Below, piece after piece: positions 17,828 through 24,501 of a stretch of 45,418 nt of DNA (position 1 is the stretch's first letter; every line of letters starts with the position of its first letter). This DNA comes from Bacteroidota bacterium. GTDB lineage: Bacteria > Bacteroidota > Bacteroidia > JABEUT01. The DNA lies in the NCBI GenBank assembly GCA_013288205.1, contig JABDCH010000007.1, positions 1 to 45,418 on the forward strand. Reading direction: 5' to 3'. The position numbers were made by a program, and so were the translations under genes. The notes beneath the pieces were generated by a model. That model was not told the origin of the DNA. It did not search any database and saw nothing but the letters and a program-made list of their open reading frames with translations.

Positions 17828-20068
17828 TTATTTCATATCACCTATTACTCTCGTCGCCTCAAATAACACGGGATCTTTCATCATTCTTTTGAGACGGATA
17901 TTTTCTGAATTAGCTTCGTTTGTGTCTGCGCGCATTTTACTTTGTTCCCCGGCAGTAGCAGTAATGAGTACATGGTAATTACCCGTAACGCCATAAAAAT
18001 TACTTGCATTATTAGTTTGTAATGCCATTGCATTAGACGCTTTTATTGTATCCTTATCATGGCTGGGTGAAAGGATAAATTGGTTTTTGCGAACATTGAA
18101 AAGAGATACATCTTCAAAGGGCAGGGCTTTATTCAATACTTCAAACCGTTTGTTTTCAGCCCTGATTTTTTTGTCTGCTTTTCTGTATTCGTCGTAATTT
18201 AATGAATAGAGGGTGCTGTCGCGTTCTTGCTTGTACGTTTTGGCATCTTCTTTCATCATAATAAAGATAGAGTCATTTGAAATACGATCCGAACTTTGTT
18301 TGGATAAGTAAGCCACATCCGGAGGATTATTCCATACCACATAGTTTGCAGGCGTTATTTTATCCCAGCTTAATGGGTAATCCGCATCCTTTTCTTTTCC
18401 ATAAGCATATTGATATGGGTCCGGCATCACAACATCAGGTGTAACACCATCTTTTTGGGTAGTACCCCCGCTAATCCGGTAAAACTTGCTGATGGTTATT
18501 TTCACTGAGCCTAATGGTTTAAGACTGTTGTATGCAGCGGCAATTTTATCATCCAATGTAAAGACTTGTTGTACAGTACCCTTACCATAGGTTTGTGAGC
18601 CCATAATTACTCCGCGTTTATAATCTTGTATAGCGGCAGCAAATATCTCTGAAGCTGAAGCGCTTGTGCCGTTAACCAATACAACCAATGGTCCCTTGTA
18701 TAAAGCGCCTGTATCGCGGCATGTAAGTACCTCAGGTTCTTTCATGCTAGGGTTCTTTATTTGAACAACGGGGCCTTGTGCCACAAATATGCCGGCCATT
18801 TTTACAACATCCTGTAAGGAGCCGCCTCCGTTATCGCGCAAGTCCATAACGATACCCTTTATGTTTTCCCCATTTAATTCTTGCACGAGAGCCTTTACAT
18901 CGTCCGAACATCTGCGAGCTCCGGTGCCATCAAAATCGGTATAGAATTCCGGCAGGCGGATGTATCCTATTTTTTCTCCGTTATTTTCAATAATGGCTGC
19001 ATGCGCATAAGTATCTTCCAAATGAATAACATCGCGTATTAGGGAAACTACTTTGGTGCTAATGCCTGACTTCACGGTCAATTTTACTTCGGTGCCTTTT
19101 TTACCACGGATAAGCTGCACAGCTTTGTCAAGGCGCATACCTTCAATATCCACAGGTGTTCCGCTACCCTGCGCCACTTTCAAAAATACATCCCCTTCTT
19201 TCAATTCCCCGCTTTTCCATGCCGGGCTTCCGGGTATTACTTTTTCAATCGTTATTTTTCCGTTTTTATCTTGCAACTGTGCTCCGATACCTTCTAATTG
19301 TCCGCTCATGGATATATCAAAGTTCTTTCTTTCTTCGGGAGCAAAGTATTCTGTATGCGGGTCATATACATTGGCTATTACATCGAAAAATTCATTGATT
19401 TTATCTGTATCGGTTATTTCGCCCAGGTATTTAAAATCGTTTTCCTCCGTTTTCAATACCATCATCCGCGCAGAGTCTTCCAGCTTTTTAAATGATTTAG
19501 GCTTATAAGCCGAGTCCTTCTTTTCTTTTGCTTTATCCTCGTCATCCAGCATTACTACCAGCTTCGCAAGGGTTTCATATTTCAACAATTTCCTCCAACG
19601 TTCATGCAAGGCATCTAAATCTTTTGGGTAAGCAACTTTGTTTCCATCGGCCTGAAAATCTTCCTGCGCATTAAAATCAAATGGTTTAGAGAGAAGTTTT
19701 TTTATGTAGATGGAATCGTCGCCTAATCGCTGATTCCATACTTTATTTACCTGGTCATAAAAAGCAAATGTGCCCTGGTTAATGGCACTGTCAATTCTAT
19801 ACTCGTAAGGTTGAAATTGCGCAATATCTTCTTGTGTAAAGTAGAGTTTATCGCTATTTAAACGCTTTAGGTAGAGGTCGTATATTCTTTTGGAGAGCGT
19901 ATCATTAACCGGTATAGGGTTATAATGTTCAGCTTCGATACCTCCAACCATGAGTTGAAGAATAGCTCTGCGCTTTTCTGATTTGGCCGAAGGATGCAGT
20001 ACGGCACATAACAATAGTCCTGAAGTAAGTAGTAATAAAACTATAAAGGCGATCCGTGTCTTTTTCAT
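17828..20068 (-). CDS. prc: C-terminal processing (tail-specific) protease, S41A family
   Basis: The 746-residue protein has one N-terminal signal or anchor segment (residues ~6-25), an N-terminal helical domain, a PDZ domain at about 245-340 (GIGAQLQDKNGKITIEKVIPGSPAW), the S41 catalytic core at about 350-560, and a C-terminal Tsp-type extension. The catalytic Ser471, Asp482 and Lys496 occur in SASASEIFAAAIQDY and TYGKGTVQ; their spacing matches the E. coli Tsp residues 430/441/455 recalled from the literature. It degrades or trims envelope proteins from their C-termini in the periplasm. It heads an operon with the LTA-synthase-like gene. Confidence 0.94.
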   Translation of the reverse strand: MKKTRIAFIVLLLLTSGLLLCAVLHPSAKSEKRRAILQLMVGGIEAEHYNPIPVNDTLSKRIYDLYLKRLNSDKLYFTQEDIAQFQPYEYRIDSAINQGTFAFYDQVNKVWNQRLGDDSIYIKKLLSKPFDFNAQEDFQADGNKVAYPKDLDALHERWRKLLKYETLAKLVVMLDDEDKAKEKKDSAYKPKSFKKLEDSARMMVLKTEENDFKYLGEITDTDKINEFFDVIANVYDPHTEYFAPEERKNFDISMSGQLEGIGAQLQDKNGKITIEKVIPGSPAWKSGELKEGDVFLKVAQGSGTPVDIEGMRLDKAVQLIRGKKGTEVKLTVKSGISTKVVSLIRDVIHLEDTYAHAAIIENNGEKIGYIRLPEFYTDFDGTGARRCSDDVKALVQELNGENIKGIVMDLRDNGGGSLQDVVKMAGIFVAQGPVVQIKNPSMKEPEVLTCRDTGALYKGPLVVLVNGTSASASEIFAAAIQDYKRGVIMGSQTYGKGTVQQVFTLDDKIAAAYNSLKPLGSVKITISKFYRISGGTTQKDGVTPDVVMPDPYQYAYGKEKDADYPLSWDKITPANYVVWNNPPDVAYLSKQSSDRISNDSIFIMMKEDAKTYKQERDSTLYSLNYDEYRKADKKIRAENKRFEVLNKALPFEDVSLFNVRKNQFILSPSHDKDTIKASNAMALQTNNASNFYGVTGNYHVLITATAGEQSKMRADTNEANSENIRLKRMMKDPVLFEATRVIGDMK

Positions 20069-20094
20069 TTTTGAGTAGGGTCTGTTTGAGGATT

Positions 20095-20102
20095 CAAAGA
20101 TA
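20095..20102 (-). promoter_or_regulatory. Candidate -7 element for prc operon
   Basis: The minus strand reads TATCTTTG, a perfect TAnnTTTG match, 26 nt before the ATG at 20068. Confidence 0.5.
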
Positions 20103-20451
20103 CTTCTTTTACGGAAGTAAGTGGGTAAGAGTCAGCGGGCAGGATTCATAAAAATTGTTAAGAATACCACCTTTGCTCTCCCGGCCTCATTGCCAGTTTC
20201 TCCATTTTCAAAACTCATAAAAAACAACAATTAACAACAGGAAATACAAGGATTTTACAAGGAAATAGGAGTGGTTTCTAAATTCTATTGCTTTGCAACA
20301 GGCTGATTTAAAGTATGTTGAAAAACCATTCCTTGTTAAATACAGTAAATTGCAATTTGTGTAAGTGATGTCATATTTCATTTCAGTGGTCAGTTATCAG
20401 TTGCGAAACTATACCATTAAAAAGTTGGTCTTGAAAACGTCAATGACTGTG
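20103..20451. other. Intergenic region upstream of prc and downstream of leuS
   Basis: About 350 bp of AT-rich sequence without a supported gene. The left edge abuts the prc promoter box, and the right part (20384-20402) holds a fragment of the CAGTGGTCAGT-type repeat also found inside leuS. No clear terminator hairpin for leuS is visible by eye. Confidence 0.6.
20384..20402. repeat. Fragment of dispersed CAGTGGTCAGT-type repeat
   Basis: The bases CAGTGGTCAGTTATCAGTT share the alternating CAGT/ACTG unit pattern with the copy inside leuS at 20946-20981, in inverted orientation. From memory, such tandem CAGT(G/A)GTCAGT units are dispersed repeats in many environmental bacterial genomes. It is short, so the assignment is tentative. 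Confidence 0.5.
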
Positions 20452-23400
20452 CTATACAACTATATTCACAATCTTATTCGGAACTACGATGACCTTTTTA
20501 ATAGGAGCCTCTTTAAGCCATTTTTTTGCATCTTCTGACGATAAAACTTCTTTCTCAATCTGCTCTTTGCTCAAGTTTAATGGCAATTCCAGCATAAAGC
20601 GGGTTTTCCCATTAAATGAAACAGGATAGGAGAACGTATTCTCAACCAAATAAGACTCTTCAAATTTCGGGAATTTTGCTTTTACAACAGAAGAGGTATG
20701 CCCCAGTTTGGTCCATAACTCTTCGGCAACGAAAGGTGCAAAAGAGGAGAGGCAGATTAACAAAGGTTCCAGTATTTCGCGCTTGTTGCATTTCAAGTCG
20801 TACAATTCATTCAGGCAAATCATAAAAGCGCTCACAGCCGTATTGAATGAAAGTCGCTCAATATCCTCATCAATTTTTTTAATGGTTTTATGCAGAATTT
20901 TTAATTCGGCAGGAGTAGCCTTTTCACCGGAAACATAAAATTCTTCAGACTGACTACTGGCCACTGACCACTGACTACTGAAAAACATTCTCCAAAACTT
21001 CTTTAAGAAATTATATACCCCGCTAATGCCTTGTGTGCTCCAGGGTTTGCTTAATTCCAATGGGCCTAAGAACATCTCATACATGCGCATAGTGTCAGCT
21101 CCATATTGAGCAACCACATCATCGGGGGTAACTACATTCCACTTGGATTTTGACATTTTTTCGACTTCGCGGTTAAAAACGTATGGCTTATTATCCTCAG
21201 GAAAAAAGACTATTTGGGTATTTTCTATCCTATCATAATTATTAATCCACTCTATGATTTTCTCTTTTTCAATATCGTTATTTGCTGAAATTTCCTGTAT
21301 TGGAAAGGGTCTAGTATTAAACCAATTTCTTCCACGTGCATCAATTTTTATTGAATAATCTTGATCTCTAACAAATGCGGCCATTCGAGGATTAAATTTC
21401 CTAAAACAATTATTGAGAAAATCGACTAATTCATTTTGCATTCCCTCATCGGTAACTATTTTATCTGCAACTTCTTTTGTTATATAAATTATTGGAATTG
21501 TAAATAGTGTACGAAGTATTGAACCACTCAATACAAATATTTCCGTATTTATTCTTGTTATATAGGCAGACACCCCCTGTATCATCCCCTGATTTACCAA
21601 TTTCTTAGCAGGCTCTGTAAAAGGAATCAAGCCATAATCATTTAAGAATTTTGTCCAGAAACGGAAATATAGCAAATGGCCTGTGGCATGTTCGGCACCG
21701 CCAATATATAAGTCCACATTTTGCCAATAGTTAATGGCATCTTTGGATGTAAACTCTTTATCGTTTTTCGGGTCTTCGTAGCGCAAATAATACCACGAAC
21801 TACCTGCCCAGCCCGGCATAGTGGTGTATTCGTAATTATATTGTCCTTTGTATTTCCAGGTGGTGGCTCTTGCCAAGGGTGGTTCACCTGTCTCCGTCGG
21901 TTGGAATTTATCTACTTCCGGCAAAACAAGTGGCAGTTCGCTTTCATCTAATGGAGTAGGTATGCCGTCTTTATAATAGATGGGTATAGGTTCGCCCCAA
22001 TAGCGTTGTCTGCCAAAAGCCGCATCGCGCAAACGGAAGTTTATTTTCCCTTTTCCCAATCCTCGTTTTTCAATTTCTTCAATAGCACGTTTAATGGCAT
22101 CTTTTACATCTAATCCATTCAGGAAATCGGAGTTGATGCATTTACCATTTTTACCGTCATAAGGTTCCGTCATTGCGAGGCTTTGCGAAGCAATCTTATT
22201 ATCGGGTAAGACTGCTTCGTTCCTCGCAGTGGCGAGGGATTCGGGAATTTCAATTACCTGTTTAATATCTAATCCAAAATGCTTAGCAAAAGCATGATCG
22301 CGGGAATCGTGAGCAGGTACACCCATTACAGCGCCTGTACCATAGCCTGCCAGCACATATTCGCCTACCCATATAGGAATCTTATTCCCGGTAAACGGGT
22401 GAATGGCATAAGCTCCCGTAAATATTCCGCTTACTTTTTTCTCCGCCTGGCGTTCGCGTTCGGTTTTGTTTTTTGCAATGTTTACGTATTCTTCAACTTG
22501 AGCTTTGTGAGAGGCAGGTGTGATTTTATTCACCAATTCGTTTTCGGGAGCGAGGGTTATAAATGTTACGCCAAAAACCGTGTCAGGACGAGTGGTAAAT
22601 ACCGTAATTGTGAATTGTTCCCGATAGCTATCGGGATTGTTAATTGTAAATTGCAAAGAACATCCTTCTGAACGCCCAATCCAGTTGCGTTGAGCTTCTT
22701 TTATGCTTTCGCTCCAGTCAATAGTATCAAGGTCGTTTAACAATCTGTCAGAATATGCGGTAATACGCAGACTCCATTGGGGCATTAGTTTTCTTTCCAC
22801 GGGATAGCCTCCGCGTTCCGAAACACCGTCTTTCACTTCGTCGTTGGCAAGTACGGTGCCCAAAGCCGGGCACCAGTTTACCCAGGCTTCGCTTAAATAA
22901 GCCAGCCGGTAGTTGAATAACACATCTGATTTTTTCTTTTCTGAAAAGGACTTCCATTCGTCGGCAGAAAAAGTCATTTCTTCTCCATAGGCAGCGTCAA
23001 TTTCTGTAGTACCCAATTTCTCAAACTGACTAATTAAGGTTTCTATAGGTTCTGCCTTCTGTGTTTTGTTATTGTACCACGAACCGAACAGTTTCAGAAA
23101 AATCCACTGGGTCCATCTATAAAACTTAGGGTCCGATGTTTTTATTTCGCGGCTCCAGTCATACGAAAAGCCCAACATATCCATTTGGCTGCGGTAGCGG
23201 GCCAGGTTTTGTTCAGTTGTGATGGTAGGGTGTTGCCCGGTCTGGATGGCATATTGTTCGGCAGGTAAGCCAAAGGCATCCCATCCCATCGGGTGAAGCA
23301 CATTAAAGCCCTTCAACCTTTTGAAACGGGAAAATATGTCGGATGCAATATATCCCAGCGGATGCCCTACGTGAAGTCCCGCACCTGAAGGATAGGGGAA

Positions 23401-23514
23401 CATATCGAGCACATAGTATTTAGGTAAAGAAGAGTCATTAGTTACCTTGTAAATATCTTCTTTAGCCCATTTTTCACGTGCGGCTTTTTCTATTTCGTCC
23501 GGTTTATATTCCAT
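20452..23514 (-). CDS. leuS: Leucyl-tRNA synthetase, enlarged by in-frame insertions
   Basis: This class I synthetase charges tRNA-Leu and edits mischarged products. The HIGH motif is in PYPSGAGLHVGHPLGY (residues ~37-52), the CP1 editing domain holds TVFTTRPDTVFGVTF (~303), and the KMSKS motif is in EKMSKSKWNVV (~785). It has 1020 residues against roughly 920-940 expected for Bacteroidota from memory. The excess lies in four places: a palindrome-encoded loop at residues ~293-299, a hairpin-repeat insertion at ~427-449, an expansion at ~640-780, and an SQWSVASSQ segment at ~844-857. All keep the reading frame, and all core motifs are intact, so it is probably functional. It is divergent from ftsX. 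Confidence 0.96.
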   Translation of the reverse strand: MEYKPDEIEKAAREKWAKEDIYKVTNDSSLPKYYVLDMFPYPSGAGLHVGHPLGYIASDIFSRFKRLKGFNVLHPMGWDAFGLPAEQYAIQTGQHPTITTEQNLARYRSQMDMLGFSYDWSREIKTSDPKFYRWTQWIFLKLFGSWYNNKTQKAEPIETLISQFEKLGTTEIDAAYGEEMTFSADEWKSFSEKKKSDVLFNYRLAYLSEAWVNWCPALGTVLANDEVKDGVSERGGYPVERKLMPQWSLRITAYSDRLLNDLDTIDWSESIKEAQRNWIGRSEGCSLQFTINNPDSYREQFTITVFTTRPDTVFGVTFITLAPENELVNKITPASHKAQVEEYVNIAKNKTERERQAEKKVSGIFTGAYAIHPFTGNKIPIWVGEYVLAGYGTGAVMGVPAHDSRDHAFAKHFGLDIKQVIEIPESLATARNEAVLPDNKIASQSLAMTEPYDGKNGKCINSDFLNGLDVKDAIKRAIEEIEKRGLGKGKINFRLRDAAFGRQRYWGEPIPIYYKDGIPTPLDESELPLVLPEVDKFQPTETGEPPLARATTWKYKGQYNYEYTTMPGWAGSSWYYLRYEDPKNDKEFTSKDAINYWQNVDLYIGGAEHATGHLLYFRFWTKFLNDYGLIPFTEPAKKLVNQGMIQGVSAYITRINTEIFVLSGSILRTLFTIPIIYITKEVADKIVTDEGMQNELVDFLNNCFRKFNPRMAAFVRDQDYSIKIDARGRNWFNTRPFPIQEISANNDIEKEKIIEWINNYDRIENTQIVFFPEDNKPYVFNREVEKMSKSKWNVVTPDDVVAQYGADTMRMYEMFLGPLELSKPWSTQGISGVYNFLKKFWRMFFSSQWSVASSQSEEFYVSGEKATPAELKILHKTIKKIDEDIERLSFNTAVSAFMICLNELYDLKCNKREILEPLLICLSSFAPFVAEELWTKLGHTSSVVKAKFPKFEESYLVENTFSYPVSFNGKTRFMLELPLNLSKEQIEKEVLSSEDAKKWLKEAPIKKVIVVPNKIVNIVV
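20946..20981. repeat. In-frame copy of CAGTGGTCAGTGGCC-type repeat inside leuS
   Basis: The plus strand reads runs of ACTGACTACTGGCCACTGACC and similar units; on the coding strand it encodes SSQWSVASSQS. The flanks (WRMFF and EEFYVSGEKATPAELK) match normal LeuRS, so this is an inserted low-complexity segment near residue 850. A related fragment lies 550 bp away at 20384-20402. Confidence 0.7.
22169..22236. repeat. Palindromic CATTGCGAGG...GAAGCAATC repeat inside leuS
   Basis: The left arm (CATTGCGAGGCTTTGCGAAG, then CAATCTT) and right arm (AAGACTGCTTCGTTCCTCGC, then AGTGG) are imperfect reverse complements around an ATTATCGGGT loop. The element is in frame in leuS and encodes roughly ESLATARNEAVLPDNKIAS through QSLAMTE. 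From memory, GTCATTGCGAGG...GAAGCAATC elements are widespread dispersed bacterial repeats, usually intergenic. Confidence 0.8.
22619..22636. repeat. 18-bp perfect palindrome inside leuS
   Basis: TCCCGATAGCTATCGGGA is a perfect 18-bp palindrome encoding the loop PDSYREQ between two strands of the LeuRS editing domain. It is flanked by similar AATTGT(T/G)AATTG-like sequence on both sides. Confidence 0.65.
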
Positions 23515-23539
23515 TGAATAATGCTGCGATTAACAACCG

Positions 23540-23547
23540 CGAAATTA
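23540..23547 (-). promoter_or_regulatory. Candidate -7-like element (TAATTTCG) for leuS
   Basis: The minus strand reads TAATTTCG, one base off TAnnTTTG, 25 nt before the leuS ATG at 23514. Confidence 0.3.
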
Positions 23548-23601
23548 GAAAAAACAATTACCTGTTTGTTACTTCTATCGTTCAGGCTTAAAAGAATTTT
23601 A

Positions 23602-23609
23602 TAATTTCG
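23602..23609 (+). promoter_or_regulatory. Candidate -7-like element (TAATTTCG) for ftsX
   Basis: TAATTTCG lies 16 nt before the ftsX ATG at 23626; it is the same 8-mer as upstream of leuS and hemH. Confidence 0.3.
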
Positions 23610-23625
23610 TGTCATAAATTTTTTC

Positions 23626-24501
23626 ATGGCATCCAAGGCAATCGGAAATAAATTCAGGTCCACTTCGCTAATAACGATAGTGAGTATCTCATTGGTGTTA
23701 TTTATCCTCGGACTATTGGCCCTGCTTATTATAGATGCTCAGAAGATAGCCCGCGATGTGAAGGAGAACGCTGATGTGGAAGTATTTTTAAATAGTAATG
23801 CAAAAGATGCCGATGTGGCCAAGTTGCAAAAGATGCTGGATGCATCGGACTATGTGAAGTCTACAGCTTATATATCCAAAGATTCAGCTGCCAAACAACT
23901 GCAAGCCGTTGATACCGGTGTCGATGTTACCCTTGCCGGGTATAATCCATTGCCCGCTTCTATTGATATACACGTAAAAGCCGATTATGCCAATATTGAC
24001 AGCCTTAGTAAAATCGAAAAAGAACTATCGCATTACCCTGAAGTGAAAGAGGTTGTTTACCAAAAAGCTTTTATCAAAATGATGAATGAAAACCTGAAAA
24101 AGATATCGCTTGTTATGCTTGGGTTCAGTTTGTTACTACTATTGGTATCGCTTACACTTATCAATAATACCATCCGGCTTACTATATACTCTAAACGGTT
24201 TTTAATTAAAACCATGCAACTGGTGGGCGCTAAACAAGGATTCATCAGGAAGCCTTTTTTATGGAAAGGCGTGCGCAATGGAGTTATTGCAGCCGTTATA
24301 GCCCTGCTGATGATATTCGGACTTATCCGTATAGCGCAATCGCGTTTAGTAGAGATACAAGAACAAGGTCTGAATGACATGAACACCTATCTTATCCTTT
24401 CGGGAGTAGTAGTTGTGTTAGGCATTTTTATTTCCTGGGTAAGTACTTACTTCGCCCTCCGCCGTTACTTGCGCGTTGCAGCAGATGAATTGCATTTTTA
24501 G
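23626..24501 (+). CDS. ftsX: Cell division ABC-transporter permease-like protein FtsX
   Basis: The 291-residue protein has the FtsX layout: a cytoplasmic N-terminus (MASKAIGNKFRSTSLITI), TM1 at ~17-37, an extracytoplasmic domain at ~40-155, then three more helices (~160-182, ~220-240, ~255-277) with the permease loop RLTIYSKRFLIKTMQLVGAKQGFIRKPF. With FtsE, FtsX controls peptidoglycan hydrolases at the division site. ftsE is not in this window, so the pair is unlinked here. It is divergent from leuS; the leuS/ftsX neighbourhood recurs in Bacteroidota as far as I recall. The next gene downstream is convergent. Confidence 0.93.
   Translation: MASKAIGNKFRSTSLITIVSISLVLFILGLLALLIIDAQKIARDVKENADVEVFLNSNAKDADVAKLQKMLDASDYVKSTAYISKDSAAKQLQAVDTGVDVTLAGYNPLPASIDIHVKADYANIDSLSKIEKELSHYPEVKEVVYQKAFIKMMNENLKKISLVMLGFSLLLLLVSLTLINNTIRLTIYSKRFLIKTMQLVGAKQGFIRKPFLWKGVRNGVIAAVIALLMIFGLIRIAQSRLVEIQEQGLNDMNTYLILSGVVVVLGIFISWVSTYFALRRYLRVAADELHF

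Follow-up and report, generated by a model that had tools for sequence, protein, structure and literature searches.

The leucyl-tRNA synthetase gene (leuS) of this Bacteroidota bacterium carries, within its reading frame, a 67-nt palindromic element that belongs to a repeat dispersed in the genus and that is absent from the orthologous genes. The best explanation, to which we give a probability of about 0.9, is that a dispersed palindromic repeat was copied into leuS and has been tolerated there. In the window, that is, the whole stretch of 45,418 nucleotides analysed here, leuS lies on the reverse strand (20452..23514) as an open reading frame (ORF) of 1020 aa with no internal stop. Its product has the Pfam domains tRNA-synt_1, editing domain PF13603 (residues 276-481) and Anticodon_1, and its best PDB matches are bacterial LeuRS structures. 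An earlier note on this DNA had described the frame and the core motifs as intact and had named the flanks of the element, and all of this holds, both HVGHPLGY and KMSKS being present. The note had also placed a palindrome of about 68 bp at 22169-22236. The palindrome exists but its limits are slightly different: the element, a REP-like dimer of the CGTC type, occupies 22168..22234 on the reverse strand, and translation of these 67 nt gives the 23-residue peptide LATARNEAVLPDNKIASQSLAMT, which is exactly residues 427-449, as the note had estimated. Unit 1 (22168..22198, forward strand, 31 nt) starts with CGTC and has the stem ATTGC/GCAAT. Unit 2, which is inverted (22204..22234, reverse strand, 31 nt), starts with CGCC, and its stem, ACTGC/GCAGT, differs from that of unit 1 by a paired change. 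The two units are about 5 nt apart, and each has its own short stem, while jointly they could form one longer hairpin.

Folded as single-stranded DNA, positions 22160-22250 reach -19.6 kcal/mol, whereas shuffled versions average -9.9 (z -4.0) and none of 200 folds as well. The element was not detected in an ungapped inverted-repeat scan (26-nt arms, up to 7 mismatches) because its arms are gapped. So strong a fold could mean that the hairpin is kept for a role in the leuS mRNA or DNA, such as pausing, decay or a gyrase/recombination site, the peptide being a by-product, and the paired stem changes described below would also fit such a role, though that constraint may act on the mobility of the element instead. 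We consider this role improbable: no Rfam family scores above threshold in 20000-24000 of the window (there is a single sub-threshold SAM-III match elsewhere in leuS), and the other LeuRS in both our 30-sequence and 109-sequence sets are without the repeat at this loop, so that no conserved regulation of leuS is seen. At the protein level, the insert lies within the editing domain as delimited by Pfam. In an AlphaFold model of the window LeuRS (44 sequences, mean pLDDT 80.5) the confidence is 90 just before the insert, 71 for residues 421-430, 54 for 431-440 and 58 for 441-450, and it returns to 83-89 just after. Such low values are as expected for a flexible loop, and a lack of homologues can also cause them. 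The position inside the editing domain and the low confidence there are compatible with the proposal in the earlier note that a model would place the segment in a surface loop, and fall short of proving it.

Comparison with relatives points to insertion. We aligned 30 LeuRS sequences, comprising that of the window, nine from the same genus and 20 from the same class. Residues 427-449 are missing in all 29 relatives, with both flanks conserved, which is the gap that the earlier note had predicted, and none of the 29 encodes the same residues without the palindrome. Eight of the nine congeners have a short loop at this site, of the WDxxK type or similar, and in the ninth, G010, the same loop is occupied by an insert of another sequence, TSPKGKINEGTFVASPIGGQGD. 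The G010 insert has inverted ends, and a search of its own genome returned two matches including itself, which leaves its interpretation as a dispersed repeat unsupported. We then counted loop lengths in these sequences together with 80 further named LeuRS, all from Bacteroidota by title, giving 109 sequences after the LeuRS of G009 (L009) was left out on account of a TAG that splits its frame. The number of residues between the two flanking columns is 19-27 in 107 of the 109, 37 in G010 and 41 in the window. The net gain of the window loop over the 23 residues of most congeners is 18, fewer than the 23 residues encoded by the element, and some loop residues must therefore have been replaced rather than the insert being a pure addition. 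The natural spread of 19-27 residues might suggest ordinary variation in loop length, by slippage or small duplications, with the likeness to a repeat arising by chance. This is extremely unlikely, however, because the 67 nt match the genus-wide repeat over their full length (90%, E 8.6e-20) and form a hairpin far stronger than those of shuffled sequences. We infer that the segment originated by insertion of the repeat rather than by gradual change. Among the matches listed, the bacterium's own genome has one full-length leuS, a second being conceivable in a genome that is 61.7% complete. In the G009 gene, the TAG (L009, 3214) is a single in-frame codon between otherwise intact halves and is either a real change or a sequence error; a 74-nt copy of a CCCC palindrome lies upstream of this gene.

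The repeat is dispersed in the genus. The bacterium's own genome, G000, is a draft of 2.42 Mb in 153 contigs and is 61.7% complete. A 70-mer query found five matches in it, including the leuS copy itself, and all four other copies lie outside ORFs of more than 71 residues, which agrees with the view in the earlier note that the element is mostly intergenic; an altered copy in aroC of the same genome is in frame. A consensus query found matches in 11 of 11 genus genomes, as expected from the note's suggestion of many genomic copies, with 111 in the sister species G002, 102 in G006 and 38, 34, 25, 20, 13 (own genome), 6, 5, 3 and 1 in the others. In these counts both strands of one palindromic place may count twice, so that the places are fewer, and in G002 and G006 the scoring covered 40 of 58 and 40 of 80 initial candidates, respectively. 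A phylum sample of 395 genomes, including that of this bacterium, was searched as well, with no more than two candidates scored in each; among the matches listed, at least 38 genomes, from 15 of 171 genera, match at E <=1e-4. We fetched 60 regions (36 from G002 and 24 from G006), corresponding to all 38 merged places of G002 and 26 of the 38 of G006 among the matches listed. The repeat is in the middle of a recognised gene in four of the 60 (aroC twice, nadE and bioA). Several further copies lie close to the first codons of an ORF whose actual start is uncertain, or within short ORFs that are presumably spurious. This scarcity inside genes would fit purifying selection. Of 31 repeat clusters in ORFs of at least 90 aa, 11 + 17 were read, the other three being the same places in overlapping loci. 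Among the 17, ten clusters have no full unit and were set aside as chance matches of a 12-mer, and seven do contain full units, but their ORFs, of 99-139 aa, are regarded as spurious.

The basic unit follows the pattern CGTC-A-NN-GC-GAG...GAA-GC-NN-T-CT. We collected 124 units from the genus loci with a pattern in which the tag was not fixed but A and T were fixed as the first pair; identical contexts were removed, and a unit fetched twice with cut flanks may count double. The CGTC tag is present in 114 of the 124 and in one of the two leuS units, and among the ten tags listed, which are CGTC and its variants, there is no GTAG. The contiguous stem is 5 bp long (ANNGC/GCNNT), the loop is mostly 10 or 13 nt and the tail after the unit is CTTA in 51, CTCT in 34 and CTCA in 25 of the 124. 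The inner stem bases are complementary in 122 of the 124 units, compared with 98 expected if the two sides were independent. The second stem pair is T-A in 114 (TT/AA in 110 and TG/CA in 4) and C-G in the second leuS unit, and among the 14 variant units, those that are not TT/AA, 12 are still complementary (CT/AG 7, TG/CA 4, CC/GG 1). These paired changes show that the stem of the unit is or was under structural constraint, possibly acting on the mobility of the element. At the fetched places, units are most often paired with their CGTC ends facing outward, a count that is biased since the query had the same arrangement. We also considered whether the element is unusually open to translation and rejected this: the leuS dimer is open in three of six frames, and 43% of 3000 shuffles do as well, while a unit with its tail is open in four of six frames, with 65% of shuffles as good, so that it cannot be called coding-ready.

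Copies in frame are found in other conserved genes, AroC, BioA and NadE all being identified by NCBIfam scores over the cut-off. In aroC (chorismate synthase), three species have one unit at the same site, namely G002, G006 and, in altered form, G000, whereas G001, G004, G007 and G008 lack it. The loop of this unit is 3 nt longer in G002 than in G006, and the frame is kept. One unit is present in bioA of G006 and in none of seven congeners. In nadE of G002, three units extend across residues 267-308, and the corresponding stretch of G006 resembles a decayed copy. A pair of units is also found in a 239-aa ORF of G009 that has no Pfam or NCBIfam match. As a separate observation, in a 199-aa ORF without a Pfam match in our own genome (L153, 1501-1518; G000:C91:8002-8019), the 18-bp palindrome that is also carried by leuS (see below) is nested in a CGTC-like unit.

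The aroC series also bears on the possibility of an assembly chimera. With a draft of 153 contigs that is 61.7% complete, such an artefact has to be considered; yet the frame of leuS is exactly kept, the contig runs for about 22 kb further on each side, and separate genomes share the same kind of insertion at one aroC site, so we give this possibility hardly any credence. The other host genes are similarly relevant to the idea that the insert is adaptive, altering the editing or tRNA binding of LeuRS. That it lies within the editing domain, and that the congener G010 has another insert in the same loop, would be in keeping with this. However, the same repeat is carried by AroC, BioA and NadE, which are unrelated enzymes, and this points to tolerance; the low model confidence over the insert would also speak against it. 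An adaptive insert is thus very improbable in our view, and the effect of the leuS insert is most likely near neutral, tolerated rather than adaptive.

Copying of a repeat into a tolerant place suggests a simple way in which the present gene may have arisen. At some point in the ancestry of this bacterium, a non-autonomous, REP-like dimer of units starting with CGTC would have been copied into leuS. The copy would have fallen in a variable loop of the editing domain, with no stop in the frame used and with the frame kept, and LeuRS would have gained a 23-residue segment, probably flexible. Because the loop was tolerant, no stop was introduced and the frame was kept, the gene would have survived selection, and judging from its sequence the LeuRS with the insert presumably works. 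Copies that break a frame or a fold would be lost and those in tolerant loops would stay. As to what moves the element, Y1-family transposases are present in 10 of the 11 genus genomes, with 38 matches. In the 20 of these 38 loci that were inspected for a RAYT as possible mover, we found no tagged repeat beside the Y1 transposase. In one locus (L079) there is an exact GCGAAGCAATC about 580 nt from the Y1 match. For comparison with MITEs, inverted units are present, and no target-site duplication is readable from the available empty sites.

The leuS gene contains two further dispersed repeats. The second is a perfect 18-bp palindrome, TCCCGATAGCTATCGGGA, at 22619..22636, which encodes residues 293-299 (NPDSYRE). 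It occurs at 13 places in the own genome, including that in leuS, compared with none for a reversed control pattern, and the LeuRS loop that contains it is longer in the window than in all 29 aligned relatives. The third, CAGTAGTCAGTGGTCAGTGGCCAGTAGTCAGT, is of the CAGT type and lies at 20949..20980 on the reverse strand, in residues 845-856. With up to two mismatches, its 20-mer has eight matches in G000 (itself included, two of them overlapping), 11 in G002, 30 in G006 and one in G010, and none in the other seven genus genomes, the control also giving none. The leuS of G006 has a related insert at the same loop. The LeuRS of G002 (L012) has, near residue 850, a hairpin insert of about 30 residues, GGGGTCGACCC, at the loop that contains the CAGT repeat in G000 and G006; with its flanks it folds at -59.5 kcal/mol (RNA parameters), and it has at least one short further match in G002.

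Long loops at residues 289-305 (window numbering), the region of the 18-bp palindrome, are not restricted to this genus, since 19 of the 80 named Bacteroidota LeuRS have at least 14 residues there. Seven of these inserts were searched for in their own genomes by one joined query, and the following figures are among the matches listed. Four of the seven match dispersed repeats: that of L198 has at least 22 further places in its own genome, that of L216 (Mucilaginibacter polytrichastri) at least four, that of L218 (Winogradskyella wandonensis) at least three and that of L222 (Muricauda sp.) at least three, where parts of the insert match. For L209 and L236 the insert itself is the one match among those listed, and the L220 insert likewise matches itself alone. 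Unrelated repeats have thus entered LeuRS loops on several occasions. This does not make leuS a special target, which we do not claim, because the density of inverted repeats is equal in 79 leuS genes (0.42 per kb) and 357 flanking ORFs (0.40 per kb), strong hairpins (z < -2.5) are few in long-loop LeuRS (2 of 20 at residues 289-305, compared with 3 of 90 short-loop LeuRS), and in an IleRS control three repeat-like inserts, judged by eye, were found in two of 30 sequences. Two IleRS, L312 and L309, have a CCCTCCTCTCCCCTTCGGGGAGAGG-like and a CCCCTCCCCTTTGGGGAGGG-like insert in the same loop in two genomes. The IleRS of G002 (L316, G002:C49:30000-34700) is 1293 aa long, compared with 1108-1210 in 30 others, and has long inserts; these were considered as palindromes and rejected, as they are not palindromic.

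In G002 we also found a second, unrelated family, a near-perfect palindrome of 60-66 bp, CCCCAAACCCCTAAAGGGGC...GCCCCTTTAGGGGTTTGGGG. It forms a 24-residue insert in nadE, at another site than the units described above, which is missing in the seven other orthologues of an alignment where the row of G000 is empty. There are at least 23 further places in G002, some of them partial, and the palindrome is in frame in at least five genes (L321-L325, L106), namely nadE, mtaB, a glycosyltransferase-like gene, an oligopeptide-type ABC ATPase gene and gldB. It is also found near the start of a radical SAM gene. MtaB, GldB, the ABC ATPase (as dipeptide-type) and the radical SAM protein score over the NCBIfam cut-offs; the glycosyltransferase scores below, and its name is tentative. 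Among the six G002 genes of this family, the orthologue comparison covers nadE only. The mtaB insert coincides with a gap in the alignment to a solved MiaB. In gldB there is no Met between the insert and the lipoprotein signal, which makes translation of the insert probable. Among the fetched loci we distinguished ten copies whose arms are intact, of which eight measure 60 nt and the others 66 and 74 nt. In five of these copies both strands are open and can encode almost identical peptides, PQTPKGAL..SxxQSPFRGLG, and all six in-gene copies of G002 use the frame of this peptide.

Palindromic elements in coding sequences were reportedly described in Rickettsia by Ogata in 2000 and 2002, and coding palindromic repeats inside Wolbachia genes are said to have been described by Ogata in 2005. 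The repeats described here resemble the latter in being translated palindromes outside Rickettsia. They likewise resemble the Rickettsia palindromic elements (RPEs) in being dispersed palindromes that are in frame in conserved genes (leuS, aroC, bioA and nadE) and missing in orthologues. RPEs are alphaproteobacterial elements of 105-146 or about 150 bp, many of which are in frame in conserved genes and tolerated there (PMC10969869, PMC2229807), and one guanylate kinase carrying an RPE is active (PMC2229807). The leuS element differs, by description rather than by sequence comparison, in being a 67-nt dimer of 31-nt units, and its named LeuRS relatives are from Bacteroidota. Another parallel is with the CGTC-tagged REPs, which, according to Di Nocera 2013 (PMC3733652), are found in five phyla including Bacteroidetes, have no known dedicated transposase and include RPE-4 and RPE-6 of R. 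conorii. According to the same paper, they are mostly intergenic with some intragenic copies, among them copies in tRNA synthetase genes (X. oryzae, E. lithoralis and S. alaskensis), and the WPE repeats of Wolbachia have no relation to the CGTC-4 repeats that other Wolbachia carry (PMC3733652). The CGTC start, the A-T first stem pairs, the dimers and the mostly intergenic location with some intragenic copies are shared with our repeat. The CGTC REPs are, however, described there with stems of 8-9 bp, loops of 4-5 nt and 3-nt tails that are mostly CCA (PMC3733652), whereas the stem of our repeat is 5 bp, its loop mostly 10 or 13 nt and its tail mostly CTT or CTC. As the tag, the A-T pairs and the behaviour are shared but the stem, loop and tail are not, we call the repeat a CGTC-like variant. 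The earlier note had likened the element to RPEs: a similar way of working is supported, in that RPE-4 and RPE-6 are assigned to CGTC-tagged REPs and the CGTC start is shared, while strict membership of that superfamily is not supported, given the differences in stem, loop and tail. GTAG REPs with their RAYTs are also short dispersed palindromes, often dimers and sometimes intragenic, but our units have no GTAG tag and the 20 loci inspected show no tagged repeat by Y1. In the literature searched, which mostly did not include subscription journals and excluded supplementary gene lists, none of the papers listed deals with palindromes carried in frame by leuS of a Bacteroidota member.

Taken more widely, and at somewhat less than even odds in our estimation, we speculate that the genus carries a Rickettsia-like, multi-family set of coding palindromes, including the PQTPKGAL..SxxQSPFRGLG one that uses a single frame in every G002 gene found, and that variable loops of essential synthetases, three LeuRS loops among them, may serve recurrently in Bacteroidota as docking sites for unrelated dispersed repeats, since what survives is filtered by tolerance. 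In-frame palindromic insertion in conserved genes, known above all from Rickettsia, is indicated for a Bacteroidota genus too. The occurrence of several unrelated repeats at once points to near-neutral repeat insertion as a way in which core enzymes acquire new peptide segments, and the recurrence of such peptides in unrelated proteins can mislead homology searches. The aroC insert, present in three species, offers a natural series for following whether segments of this kind are lost by decay, are kept or take on a function.
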